From positions 1 to 57,860 of the forward strand of contig JAVKGX010000003.1 of the NCBI GenBank assembly GCA_031432545.1: DNA of 57,860 nt, in the 5' to 3' direction. The notes under the pieces were generated by a model, which saw only the letters and a list, made by a program, of their open reading frames with translations, was not told the origin of the DNA and searched no databases. Positions 1,694-5,798 of this stretch are shown piece after piece (position 1 is the stretch's first letter; each line of letters starts with the position of its first letter). The DNA comes from Armatimonadota bacterium (lineage in GTDB: Bacteria; Sysuimicrobiota; Sysuimicrobiia; Sysuimicrobiales; Sysuimicrobiaceae). The translations under genes were made by a program, and so were the position numbers.

Positions 1694-3151
1694 TCAGGAG
1701 GAGGGGGAGGAGGTACGCTGGCCAGCGCGGTGGATGGGGATCACGCGGGCGCTGTGGCTAGGTGCTGGGGCGACGGTTTCCTCCGCCGGCGGCTCGATCG
1801 CAGCCGGGATGATCGGTCCCTTCAGTACGCCGCGGGCGATGAGTTCGTCTTCGAGCGCGCGGACCACCGAGAGGTCGTACTCCTTGCCGGCAACACTGTA
1901 TAGTTCCCGGACGGTGGCCTCCGGAGTCTTCGCCGGGCGGTAGGGGCGGTCGGTGGTCATCGCATCGTAGGCGTCGGCCACCGCCAGGATTCGCGCAGGG
2001 TAGAGGATCTCCTCGCCCTTCAGGCCCTGCGGGTAGCCCGAGCCATCGAGCCGCTCGTGGTGCTGGTGGAGGACGTCGAGGGCCGGCCGGTAGAGGCTGA
2101 TGCGTTCGAGGATACGTACCCCGGCTTCGACGTGCTCTTGCATCTCTCCGAGCTCGTCGGCGTCCAGTTTCCCCCGCTTCTGGAGTACGGCGTCCCGGAC
2201 CGCGACCTTGCCCACGTCGTGCACCCGGGCGATGACTTCCAGGTTGTGCAGGTCCTGACTGCTGATTCCCAGGCGCCGACCCAGCGCCGTCGCCAGCTCG
2301 GCCACCCGCTGGGAGTGCTGCGACGTATATGGATCCCGAAGGTCGATGGCGTCGGCCAGGGCCTGGATGAAGCTATCGGTCTCCGTGCGCAGACGGACGT
2401 AGTTCTCGTAGGAGAGTTTGGTGGCGATCATTGGTGGAATCAGGAGGAGCAATGCGGCCGGATGCAGGTTCCAAAGAAGCACAGCGATAACCGCGAGGCC
2501 AATCATTGCTCCAAACACCGGGGCCACGACGGACATATTCTGAAAGAGCACTGGAGGCAATGACAGGCCCTGGGCTACCGAGATTACCATTGCGATCATG
2601 CTACTGTTTGCAACAAAGAAGACACCGCCCGCAAGAAGTGCAGCAATGATGCTATGCGGCAGGGCATTCTGAAAGGCAGTGTTGCCCGCAACACTTTGAT
2701 AGGCGGTCCCAGCGAGAAACACTGAGACCCCGTACGTGGCGACGTTGTAGACCGTCTTAAACCAAGGCTTGCCGGCTTGAATGTGCGTTGTGGTTGCGGC
2801 AAACACCAGTAAGAGAAAGGCCACTGGCCATCCGTAAAGAATGAGAACAGGAAGGGCGATGATAATGGTAAGGGTTACCTCGGTGCCTTCCTTACCAATG
2901 TTGAACCTCGTAGGCCGAAGCTCAGTTAGGATTGCAGCGAAGGTCGCAGACATTAGCACAGCGACGTCCTGATGGAGAACCGGTACTCGATCACTGACCA
3001 ACAGCAAGACAACGTGGACGGCAAGCATGCCGAAGCCTGCTGTAACGACAGCAATCAGCAGCTTTAACTGCGGGCGCACCGGAGCATTTCCTCCGCTCGA
3101 GGGGCGGTACCCGCCCGTCGAGGGGAAGTTAGGGAGCAAATCGCGTGCCAC
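1694..3151 (-). CDS. Membrane-bound HD-GYP domain phosphodiesterase
   Basis: Predicted cyclic-di-GMP phosphodiesterase or related sensor. The N-terminal half (about residues 25-235) is a chain of hydrophobic segments resembling a MASE-type membrane sensor. The C-terminal half (about 250-440) is an HD-GYP domain: SQHSQRVAELA, the HD pair in ARVHDVGKV, then HHERLDGSGYPQGLKG, which carries the GYP signature, and DAYDAMTTDRPYR. All expected metal ligands seem present, so it should be catalytically competent. The start is GTG 3151; SD support is weak. It is the first long gene downstream, on the same strand, of the mini-ORF array at 3259-3580, and may be co-transcribed with it. The membrane domain reads more AT-rich than neighbouring genes. 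The ligand is unknown. Confidence 0.88.
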   Translation of the reverse strand: MARDLLPNFPSTGGYRPSSGGNAPVRPQLKLLIAVVTAGFGMLAVHVVLLLVSDRVPVLHQDVAVLMSATFAAILTELRPTRFNIGKEGTEVTLTIIIALPVLILYGWPVAFLLLVFAATTTHIQAGKPWFKTVYNVATYGVSVFLAGTAYQSVAGNTAFQNALPHSIIAALLAGGVFFVANSSMIAMVISVAQGLSLPPVLFQNMSVVAPVFGAMIGLAVIAVLLWNLHPAALLLLIPPMIATKLSYENYVRLRTETDSFIQALADAIDLRDPYTSQHSQRVAELATALGRRLGISSQDLHNLEVIARVHDVGKVAVRDAVLQKRGKLDADELGEMQEHVEAGVRILERISLYRPALDVLHQHHERLDGSGYPQGLKGEEILYPARILAVADAYDAMTTDRPYRPAKTPEATVRELYSVAGKEYDLSVVRALEDELIARGVLKGPIIPAAIEPPAEETVAPAPSHSARVIPIHRAGQRTSSPSS

Positions 3152-3258: not shown

Positions 3259-3300
3259 CTAGGCCCAGCGCTCACACTTGGTACGACCCCACTTGTTCAT
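3259..3300 (-). CDS. Mini-ORF copy A, 13-residue peptide MNKWGRTKCERWA
   Basis: ATG 3300 to TAG 3259 encodes MNKWGRTKCERWA. A near-ideal SD, GAGGAGG (3306-3312 on the minus strand), sits 5 nt before the ATG. The peptide has two Trp, one Cys and a net positive charge. It is the copy nearest the HD-GYP gene, whose start lies 107 bp downstream. It matches no family I know. It could be a signalling peptide, a regulatory leader or an untranslated repeat. Confidence 0.55.
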   Translation of the reverse strand: MNKWGRTKCERWA

Positions 3301-3354
3301 GCCGCCCTCCTCAACACTGGGGTAGTCATGACGGTGAACTGAGAACTGAAGGTT

Positions 3355-3396
3355 CTAGGCCCAGCGCTCACACTTGGTACGACCCCACTTGTTCAT
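3355..3396 (-). CDS. Mini-ORF copy B, identical 13-residue peptide
   Basis: Exact duplicate of copy A at 96 bp distance, with the same SD GAGGAGG and 5-nt spacer and the same TAG stop. A 54-bp spacer separates its stop from the next start. The sequence is identical to copy A at DNA level, so this copy alone cannot show selection on the peptide. Confidence 0.55.
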   Translation of the reverse strand: MNKWGRTKCERWA

Positions 3397-3450
3397 GCCG
3401 CCCTCCTCAACACTGGGGTAGTCATGACGGTGAACTGAGAACTGAAGGTT

Positions 3451-3492
3451 CTAGGCCCAGCGCTCACACTTGGTACGACCCCACTTGTTCAT
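3451..3492 (-). CDS. Mini-ORF copy C, same peptide with a diverged upstream region
   Basis: Encodes the same MNKWGRTKCERWA. Upstream of the start, homology to the other copies ends right after the SD (GAGGAGG, then GCGCT instead of GCGGC). The shared block is therefore SD, ORF and downstream spacer, which favours translation as the conserved property. Confidence 0.55.
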   Translation of the reverse strand: MNKWGRTKCERWA

Positions 3493-3562
3493 AGCGCCCT
3501 CCTCTGGTTTGGTGTGCAGTGCCGGTACCACCGCGTCCGTACGATCCGTCGATGCGTAACGG

Positions 3563-3580
3563 CTAACCCCACTTGTTCAT
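3563..3580 (-). CDS. Mini-ORF copy D, truncated five-residue version MNKWG
   Basis: ATG 3580 followed by AAC AAG TGG GGT TAG. Only the SD region (AAGGAGT, 6 nt from the ATG) and the first five codons match copies A-C. Flanking sequence is otherwise different, apart from a similar CCAAACC block just upstream of the SD in copies C and D. It may be a decayed copy or a minimal regulatory ORF. Confidence 0.4.
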   Translation of the reverse strand: MNKWG

Positions 3581-3680
3581 GGCGCACTCCTTAATCCGGT
3601 TTGGCACGGTAGTTGCTCTTGCAGCACTGCGGCTACAAGTGCCAGCGGCCCGAGCCTCCGGCGTGCTGGGTACTACCTGT

Positions 3681-3716
3681 GTCTGGCGAGGGGGTCAGTG
3701 TGCCCTCGCGTCAGAC
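3681..3716. other. Strong hairpin 1 of the intergenic cluster
   Basis: GTCTG-GCGAGGG (3681-3692) pairs with CCCTCGC (3703-3709) and CAGAC (3712-3716), giving about 12 base pairs with a 2-nt bulge and a 10-nt loop. No T-run follows on the plus strand. It lies within 4 nt of hairpin 2. Confidence 0.6.
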
Positions 3717-3750
3717 AAAACAACCGACTGCGTCCGTCACAGTCGGTTGT
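3716..3750 (-). terminator. Perfect 11-bp hairpin with minus-strand T-run; candidate intrinsic terminator
   Basis: ACAACCGACTG (3720-3730) and CAGTCGGTTGT (3740-3750) are perfect inverted repeats around a 9-nt loop. On the minus strand the stem is followed by TTTTGTCT, as in a rho-independent terminator. Transcription from the 3750-4330 side would stop here before reaching the mini-ORF array. No clear minus-strand gene precedes it, so it may end a small RNA or act as an attenuator. Confidence 0.55.
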
Positions 3751-3782
3751 CCGGCACTTTCCTTGAAGTTAGCTGGAGATTT

Positions 3783-3810
3783 GACGCACACCCCGTCTGG
3801 GGTCGGCGTC
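3783..3810. other. Strong hairpin 3 of the intergenic cluster
   Basis: GACGC (3783-3787) with GCGTC (3806-3810) and ACCCC (3790-3794) with GGGGT (3799-3803) form a two-part stem with a GTCT tetraloop and a small internal loop. It lies 32 bp from hairpin 2, so three hairpins occupy about 130 bp. Confidence 0.5.
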
Positions 3811-4334
3811 CAAACTCCAAGCGTCAATCCGAGTTCGATTGTCCTGGAAGCTGAAAAGACCCTATCACCCCTGCAGCGCCAGCATGCGGCCTCTACCGCT
3901 GTGCTGTCAAGAAAGTTCGTTTTTCCGGCTGTCCCCCGCTTTCTATATCGGACTCCGTTATAAATGCATGGGCTACGGTTCTGGACAAAGAACGTGCGCT
4001 CGGCCTTCTTCCGCCGCATGTGGGGCGCGGCTCTCCGTAGGCCGGTCCAATGCATGGAGGTTGGCCGCTGGCACAAGCCGAGCGCTGGAGTTCGCTCGGC
4101 GGTGGCAGCGGTGCCTGCTATCATGACCCGGGACGGCCTGGATGGCCTAACGGGTCCATATTGCACTGCACGTGTCGCCACCGGACGGGGCGCACCACCC
4201 GGTCGTGACCGCCTCGAGACTTGATCCCCGTCCGGGGCTTTCAAGCGTGTCATGGGCCGCCGGCTTAAGGTCCGATCGAGGCCGCCGCACGGTTGACCAC
4301 CGGCACCGACCATTGGCTTTCGTGGGGTGACGCC
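3811..4334. other. Intergenic stretch before glgA without a convincing gene
   Basis: About 520 bp with several ORFs of 85-116 codons on both strands. None has a recognisable domain, and I accept none. The AT-rich site TTATAAATGCATGG near 3958-3971 looks promoter-like, and a plus-strand ORF of 86 codons starts there (ATG 3964). That ORF is Arg/Trp-rich and unsupported by homology. A TGCTATCAT element near 4116-4124 could be an extended -10 for glgA. Confidence 0.4.
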
Positions 4335-5798
4335 TTGCGGGTGCTGTTCGTCTCCTCGGAAGTTGCACCGTTCGCGAAGACCGGCGGACTCGCGGACGTG
4401 AGCGCCGCGCTGCCGGCTGCTCTGGCCCGAGCGGGGATCGACGCGAGGATCTGCATGCCGCGGTATGGTTCCATCCCCATCCCTGCGCCCTCAAGCCTCG
4501 TGCGCGAGAGCGGTGGGGAGATCGTCGAAACCTCGTTGGGTGACGTCACGGTCTGGATGGTGGATCATCCGGGCTACTTCGACCGTCCGGGCCTGTATGG
4601 GGAGGGCGGGCGCGACTACGAAGACAACCTGGAGCGGTTTGCGTTCTTCTGCCGCGCGGCGCTGGCATGGTGCCGGCAAAGCGGCTGGATCCCCGACGTG
4701 GTCCACTGCAACGACTGGCAGACCGCGCTGATCCCGGTCTACCTGAAGATCGCCCATTGTGGCGATCCCGATTTGCGGGACGTGGCCAGCCTCCTGACGG
4801 TCCACAACCTGGCCTACCAGGGCGTGTTTCCAGCCGAACGCTTCTCGGCCACGGGCCTGCCGCCGGAGCTGTTCAGTTCGGCTGCGTTGGAGTTCTGGGG
4901 CAAGGTCAACCTGCTCAAGGGCGGGCTGGTGTTTGCCGATCTGTTGAGCACGGTCAGCCCGACGTACGCGCGCGAGATCCAGACCCCTGAGTTCGGGTGC
5001 GGTCTCGACGGTGTCCTGCGCGAGCGGGCGCACGATCTGTACGGCATCCTCAACGGGGCTGACTACACGGTGTGGGATCCCTGGGTGGACGAACTCATCC
5101 CGGCCCGCTACAGCGCAGCCGACCTCAGCGGCAAGGCGGTCTGCAAGGCAGAGCTGCAGCGGGAGTTCGGTCTGGACCCGGCGCCAGAAGCGCCACTGTT
5201 GGGGGTGGTGTCGCGGCTCACGGATCAGAAGGGGCTGGACCTGATCGCGGCGTGCCTAGACCGGATCGTCGCGGCCGGCGCCCAGTTCGTCCTCCTCGGC
5301 ACGGGGGATCCCAAGTACCAAGACCTCTTCCGCAACGCTGCCCGGTCCCATCCGGGTTCGGTCGGCGTTCGGATCGGGTTTGACGAGCGGCTGGCGCACT
5401 GGATCGAGGCCGGCGCCGACATCTTCCTGATGCCGTCTCGCTACGAACCTTCGGGGCTGAATCAGCTCTACAGCCTCCGATACGGCACCGTCCCGGTCGT
5501 GCGCAGGACGGGCGGACTGGCCGACAGCATCACCGACGCCACACCGGATGCGATCGAGCGAGGTGAGGCCACGGGGTTCGTCTTCGTCGACTACACGGCC
5601 GATGCGTTGTGGACGGCCATCGAGCGAGCACTGGCTGCCCACCGGGACCCCGAGATCTGGTCCAGGTTGGTGCAGGCCGGGATGGCGGCGGACTTCTCGT
5701 GGGATCGGGCAGCGGCGGGCTACGTCGAGCTCTACCGTAAGGCGGTCGAGCGGCGCAGGGCCGGGCGGGACTTTGGCGACCGCGGATACGGAGGGTAG
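4335..5798 (+). CDS. glgA: Glycogen synthase GlgA (GT5)
   Basis: Transfers glucose from ADP-glucose (or UDP-glucose) to the non-reducing end of alpha-1,4-glucan. About 487 residues, the family norm. The nucleotide-sugar site KTGGLADV is near the N-terminus, HNLAYQG is mid-domain 1, and the second Rossmann domain has SRLTDQKGLDL, LGTGD and the catalytic region PSRYEPSGLNQLYSLRYGT. I chose TTG 4335 because known GlgA proteins begin directly with (M)RVLFVSSEVAPFAKTGG; GGGGTGA sits 5 nt upstream. An in-frame TTG at 4293 would add 14 residues. The ADP-glucose source, GlgC, is encoded at 17822. galT follows 116 bp downstream on the same strand. Confidence 0.93.
   Translation: MRVLFVSSEVAPFAKTGGLADVSAALPAALARAGIDARICMPRYGSIPIPAPSSLVRESGGEIVETSLGDVTVWMVDHPGYFDRPGLYGEGGRDYEDNLERFAFFCRAALAWCRQSGWIPDVVHCNDWQTALIPVYLKIAHCGDPDLRDVASLLTVHNLAYQGVFPAERFSATGLPPELFSSAALEFWGKVNLLKGGLVFADLLSTVSPTYAREIQTPEFGCGLDGVLRERAHDLYGILNGADYTVWDPWVDELIPARYSAADLSGKAVCKAELQREFGLDPAPEAPLLGVVSRLTDQKGLDLIAACLDRIVAAGAQFVLLGTGDPKYQDLFRNAARSHPGSVGVRIGFDERLAHWIEAGADIFLMPSRYEPSGLNQLYSLRYGTVPVVRRTGGLADSITDATPDAIERGEATGFVFVDYTADALWTAIERALAAHRDPEIWSRLVQAGMAADFSWDRAAAGYVELYRKAVERRRAGRDFGDRGYGG

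Follow-up and report, generated by a model that had tools for sequence, protein, structure and literature searches.

Four mini-ORFs flanked by glgA and a membrane HD-GYP gene

The window analysed here is a stretch of 57,860 nucleotides from a contig (JAVKGX010000003.1) of a Sysuimicrobiaceae bacterium. It carries a glgA-like glycogen synthase gene on the plus strand (4293-5798; named from its sequence without a family search, start codon uncertain) and a membrane HD-GYP gene on the minus strand, and between the two lies an array of four mini-ORFs. The array occupies positions 3259-3593 of the minus strand, and each of its ORFs is led by a Shine-Dalgarno (SD) site. The first to be read, copy D, encodes MNKWG followed by a stop (3563-3580, ATG at 3580; SD GGAG at 3587-3590, within AAGGAG). 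It is followed by three copies of MNKWGRTKCERWA and a stop, each with an SD GGAGG that is part of a longer GAGGAGG: copy C (3451-3492, start at 3492; SD 3498-3502), copy B (3355-3396, start at 3396; SD 3402-3406) and copy A (3259-3300, start at 3300; SD 3306-3310). Spacing across the array is 96, 96 and 88. The 96-bp units of A and B are identical, while unit C keeps the same ORF and SD but has diverged in its upstream flank, so that identity over the unit is 69%. The initial annotation had described exactly this arrangement of three 13-mers, one pentapeptide version and an identical pair of repeats, and the sequence bears it out.

The array is real. The SD followed by ATGAACAAGTGGGG, with up to three mismatches, is found at four places in the window, where 0.02 would be expected, and MNKWG is the sole repeated start among the window's 14 SD-led mini-ORFs of 2-15 codons. 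Tandem Repeats Finder recovers the same array, a whole-genome scan confines its motif to a single locus in the 2.19-Mb genome, and Rfam scans of the region gave no match above threshold. The genome is assembled in 21 contigs and probably metagenome-derived, so that the existence of identical 96-bp units is firmer than their number, and the exact count could be an assembly outcome. The identity of A and B suggests recent amplification of the coding unit.

Upstream of the HD-GYP gene, the array lies at a distance of 170-500 nt. Its product is a membrane protein with a MASE9-type sensor, 461 residues long from a GTG at 3079 (1694-3079; an alternative ORF call gives 485 residues from 3151). In a Pfam search it matched HD_5 (E = 9.7e-36) and, above that model's cut-off, MASE9 (E = 6.4e-6). 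The protein carries HDVGK and HHERLDGSGYP, the signature residues of an HD-GYP c-di-GMP phosphodiesterase, and shares its HD and GYP signatures with the HD-GYP phosphodiesterases of PDB entries 4mcw and 4r8z. Resemblance to these solved structures is limited to the catalytic part; the MASE9-type sensor part finds no counterpart in them. An AlphaFold model from a two-sequence input was uninformative (pLDDT 41).

A pentapeptide ORF that changes only at synonymous positions

The comparison drew on 43 genomes of the phylum, probably CSP1-3/Sysuimicrobiota (compare PMC11604079), all from one class and order. Each of the five other family genomes with good coverage, which belong to two genera, carries an SD followed by [A/G]TGAAYAAGTGGGGN-TAR at the same place, between glgA and the membrane HD-GYP gene; the same glgA-like neighbour stands beside the locus in the relatives. 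In the sixth other family genome, which is 72% complete, the locus is absent. This mini-ORF, termed ORF1, is the counterpart of copy D. No match to the intergenic DNA of the window locus could be detected in the other genomes, yet the SD, start, codons 2-5 and stop of MNKWG are kept in six genomes of three genera. Across these six, a small sample of related genomes, substitutions in the 18-base mini-ORF fall at synonymous positions only: the first base of the start, the Asn wobble, the Gly wobble (where all four bases occur) and the third base of the stop. A translated pentapeptide under selection is expected to change in this way, an expectation that a pure DNA or RNA motif does not share. 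The MNKWG starts are therefore likely to be translated, as judged from their pattern of substitution.

In five relatives a second SD-MNKWG follows 44-81 nt after the mini-ORF and opens an ORF of 28-32 codons (ORF2), and in each family genome the MNKWG motif occurs at this locus only. ORF2 encodes a signal-like micropeptide that runs from MNKWG through a hydrophobic stretch to GKWG, for instance MNKWG-KLVLLLSTLASLLVSAGA-HGKWG in G040 and MNKWG-VYVVRLALALSTLASLLVAGGA-GGKWG in G036. Its pN/pS ratio within genera is 0.12-0.21, and ORF2 is thus coding. Codon substitution, a check proposed with the initial annotation, gives synonymous-only change in the mini-ORF and purifying selection on the gene opened by the second MNKWG copy in five of the six genomes. 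That annotation had also argued for translation from the conservation of initiation signals. The argument holds for the MNKWG start, with its synonymous-only change in six genomes; it does not carry over to the 13-residue sequence, which was found nowhere else.

Few conserved translated ORFs would be shorter than this mini-ORF, whose size annotation pipelines ignore. No MNKWG-like mini-ORF precedes the peptide at 23 loci outside the family. Beside three family loci, a further search for SD-MNKWG-stop matched two Streptomyces sequences and one archaeal sequence; these were rejected, as they have neither the neighbourhood nor a second copy.

Very short ORFs upstream of genes can act in cis, and leader peptides of attenuation or ribosome arrest, such as TnaC and the erm leaders, are familiar examples. 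At this locus ribosome stalling or re-initiation on MNKWG-stop could set downstream translation or transcript stability, with no role for the peptide in trans. The ORFs are, like those leaders, SD-led and conserved in their codons, Trp included. In each of the five relatives 44-81 nt separate the mini-ORF from the peptide gene that follows it, the KWG-stop codons are conserved in ORF1 and again where ORF2 ends, and a long leader extends from a conserved TTGACA. On the other hand, the six genomes share no hairpin that would hide the next SD and no common pattern of sequestration, Rfam returned no match, no Trp-related or antibiotic-related target gene is present, and leaders are not usually amplified in tandem as entire coding units. 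We regard a purely cis-acting role as a possible but rather unlikely account. As for the signalling look noted initially, the gene neighbours suggest that the peptides may have such a role.

The TTGACA, resembling a -35 element, lies at 3905-3910 on the minus strand upstream of the array and is present in six of six family genomes, at -236 to -330 from ORF1. Between it and the first mini-ORF (3600-3910, minus strand), and likewise in loci L038, L039 and L040, the leader is rich in hairpins. A strong one in the window, ACAACCGACTG/CAGTCGGTTGT at 3720-3750, is followed by a TTTTGTC-like T-rich sequence and has no Rfam match.

A micropeptide family beside membrane c-di-GMP enzymes

The ORF2 peptide extends beyond the family. 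A first outside member, noticed by eye ahead of an HD-GYP homologue in G015, was added to the profile, which then recovered members in G020, G041, G005 and G006 with an MRWK start, the same core and a GKW tail. These four all lie beside HD-GYP and DUF5317 genes, a setting in which the profiles placed relatives in three further families. In a whole-genome profile search blind to neighbours, the peptide was present at ten of ten loci in the order where DUF5317 stands beside HD-GYP, and in none of twelve genomes with DUF5317 elsewhere. A contig break splits the HD-GYP gene in G038 and G039.

Members also occur in other phyla. A plasmid of Natranaerobius thermophilus (Bacillota) carries an unannotated SD-led peptide of 28 residues, MNKVVLILVTLLGVVLAGGASFTWGGGG (L096:3586-3672), just before HD-GYP and DUF5317 genes. 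This member was chosen by eye and left out of the profile used on Actinomycetota. In a tblastn search, other plasmids gave no peptide or DUF5317 match. The HD-GYP and DUF5317 genes of the Natranaerobius plasmid look split, each being annotated as two ORFs. A sample of 397 Actinomycetota genomes yielded nine profile matches, eight of them peptides of 24-30 residues directly before a membrane HD-GYP gene or, once (G276), a GGDEF gene. In one class the peptide is found in 22 of 36 genomes, with an adjacent HD-GYP gene in 21 and a contig end in the remaining one, and its pN/pS ratio in that class is 0.14-0.18. The peptide family thus adjoins membrane c-di-GMP enzymes in at least three bacterial phyla.

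At the GGDEF locus (G276:C164; L109 / L138) the sensor of the enzyme is weakly MASE9-like, and a divergent DUF5317 gene lies on the other side. Judging from this genome, the micropeptide seems to track the type of sensor rather than the output domain, which would point to the sensor as the partner of the peptide.

The consensus is roughly M-K-x-R-hydrophobic-L-A-x-L-x-L-x-G-G-A, followed by a tail of 3-7 residues with Trp, Arg or Lys, such as GWRW, HWRW, GGRLG, HGKWG or GTKWSN. Among 15 aligned sequences the Ala that ends the core is invariant and position -3 usually holds A, S or G, with I in two cases; the invariant Ala would suit signal peptidase I. Conservation of the core exceeds what a plain signal sequence needs, as if its helix made a specific contact, for which the MASE9-type domain and DUF5317 are plausible partners. 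None of the micropeptide sequences tried matched Pfam or NCBIfam models, AgrD-type and other named autoinducer families included. Full-text literature searches found no relevant paper on MNKWG, DUF5317, MASE9 or TM0504, and none on the micropeptide family, in agreement with the early impression that no described family fits. The literature searched also offers no stimulus for the MASE9 sensor or DUF5317; the neighbouring micropeptide is a concrete candidate ligand or subunit. The real discovery at this locus is an unnamed family of micropeptides of 25-33 residues, of which the 13-mers, seen in one genome, would be an altered form.

Outward-facing sigma-54-like sites

The array is flanked by sigma-54-like -24/-12 sites found by a motif scan: TGGCACGCGATTTGCT at 3135-3150 on the minus strand, facing the HD-GYP gene, and TGGCACGGTAGTTGCT at 3602-3617 on the plus strand, facing glgA. 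Both match TGGCAC-N5-TTGCW perfectly, as no other site in the window does, and both face outward. The site toward glgA is perfect in six of six family genomes and the one toward the HD-GYP gene has 0-2 mismatches, and RpoN is encoded in seven of seven family genomes. The pair, kept in six family genomes, would tie glgA and the c-di-GMP enzyme to RpoN.

The sites, RpoN and the conserved arrangement make a serious rival of the idea that the repeats are enhancer DNA, bound by an activator of two divergent sigma-54 promoters, with the ORFs incidental. Variation confined to synonymous positions, the retention of SD spacing and stop, and the peptide family beside HD-GYP genes in G005, G006 and G015, where RpoN was not found (two of these genomes are incomplete), speak for a lower rating. 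Moreover, the repeat has no dyad and its motif occurs at this locus only in each genome. We consider that the repeats are quite improbable as mere enhancer DNA.

The 13-mers of the window genome

Among the well-covered family genomes, the window genome alone has neither DUF5317 nor the hydrophobic peptide: a search of the genome for the former and a profile search of the locus for the latter were both negative. The position of ORF2 is occupied by MNKWGRTKCERWA, in three copies of which copy C takes the place of the relatives' gene. Related genomes were the proposed place to look for the 13-mer, and an exact back-translated scan of the genome contigs returned nothing; what is conserved instead is MNKWG and a hydrophobic peptide ending in GKWG. 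Neither MNKWG nor MNKWGRTKCERWA has a hydrophobic core ending in (G/S)GA. The window ORFs are relatives of the micropeptide family in position and MNKWG only. The RTKCERWA tail of the 13-mer could be a shortened micropeptide without its core (compare GKWRDW in G006), although homology beyond MNKWG is not demonstrable.

The 13-mers could also be a decaying or neutral tandem duplication, functionless since the hydrophobic peptide and DUF5317 were lost. The loss of these two genes here, the identity and hence recency of A and B, and the lack of conservation of the 13-residue sequence all fit this. Copy C fits it less well, for it keeps its SD and all 14 codons identical despite a diverged flank, a pattern that recent duplication or gene conversion could also produce. 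Overall, a functionless remnant seems to us a doubtful explanation, and any function of the 13-mers would be a prediction from neighbourhood and conservation.

A proposed rewired micropeptide/c-di-GMP locus

Taken together, these data give about even chances that the array is a rewired variant, peculiar to this lineage, of a translated micropeptide/c-di-GMP locus. The ancestral module would have had two core parts. One is a peptide of 25-33 residues that opens with basic residues, continues in a conserved hydrophobic core closed by (G/S)GA and finishes in a short tail with many aromatic and basic residues; the other is a membrane c-di-GMP enzyme carrying a MASE9-type sensor, encoded immediately downstream or with one gene in between. 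A DUF5317 membrane protein is often encoded close by. In the family of the window genome the peptide gene starts with MNKWG and ends with GKWG, and a separate MNKWG-stop mini-ORF precedes it; the window genome itself lacks the hydrophobic peptide and DUF5317, whose place a three-copy MNKWG-led gene of 13 codons would have taken. In the relatives the micropeptide would insert into the membrane, where signal peptidase may cut after GA to release a pentapeptide of the xGKWG type, and the peptide would tune the sensor and thereby c-di-GMP breakdown, through a contact to which gene order points. For MNKWG and MNKWGRTKCERWA, encoded at the same locus, the scheme foresees no export: they would remain in the cytosol and act in the same circuit. 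Three points stand against this scheme: the 13-mers were seen in one genome only, they show no demonstrable homology to the hydrophobic peptide apart from MNKWG, and the repeats lie where sigma-54 enhancer DNA would sit.

A broader proposal is more tentative, and we hold it with considerable doubt. Micropeptides or their signal-peptidase products could serve as MASE9 ligands or subunits across phyla, with DUF5317 as a helper, and one lineage could have turned the signal into penta- and tridecapeptides that stay inside the cell and have minigenes of their own. The locus may belong to an unstudied peptide-controlled signalling module.

Several known systems invite comparison. Short linear peptide pheromones arise from precursors that bear a signal peptide. 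The micropeptides share with such precursors a basic start, a hydrophobic core and a small residue before a tail of 3-7 residues; they differ in having a core more conserved than a plain signal sequence and no known receptor family next door, and their cleavage is putative. MgrB and SafA are small proteins encoded beside a sensor which they tune. DbfQ, encoded beside dbfRS in Vibrio cholerae, is reported to be a small protein that tunes its neighbouring sensor (PMC12714742). As with these three, the present loci encode a tiny product, predicted to be directed to export or to the membrane, beside the gene of a membrane sensor. They differ in that the micropeptides adjoin a MASE9-type c-di-GMP enzyme as candidate partner, often with DUF5317, and have 25-33 residues with a conserved GGA core, while the MNKWG mini-ORFs and 13-mers lack any hydrophobic segment.

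DUF5317 itself has a second context, in f5 genomes: at L082-L092 it lies just upstream of mraZ/rsmH-like genes (identified by eye), with neither the peptide nor an adjacent HD-GYP gene. DUF5317 is also present in Thermotoga maritima and Thermus composti. At two Actinomycetota loci (L107:2922-4187 and L108:2977-4269), the first membrane HD-domain gene is succeeded by another whose sequence is more divergent.
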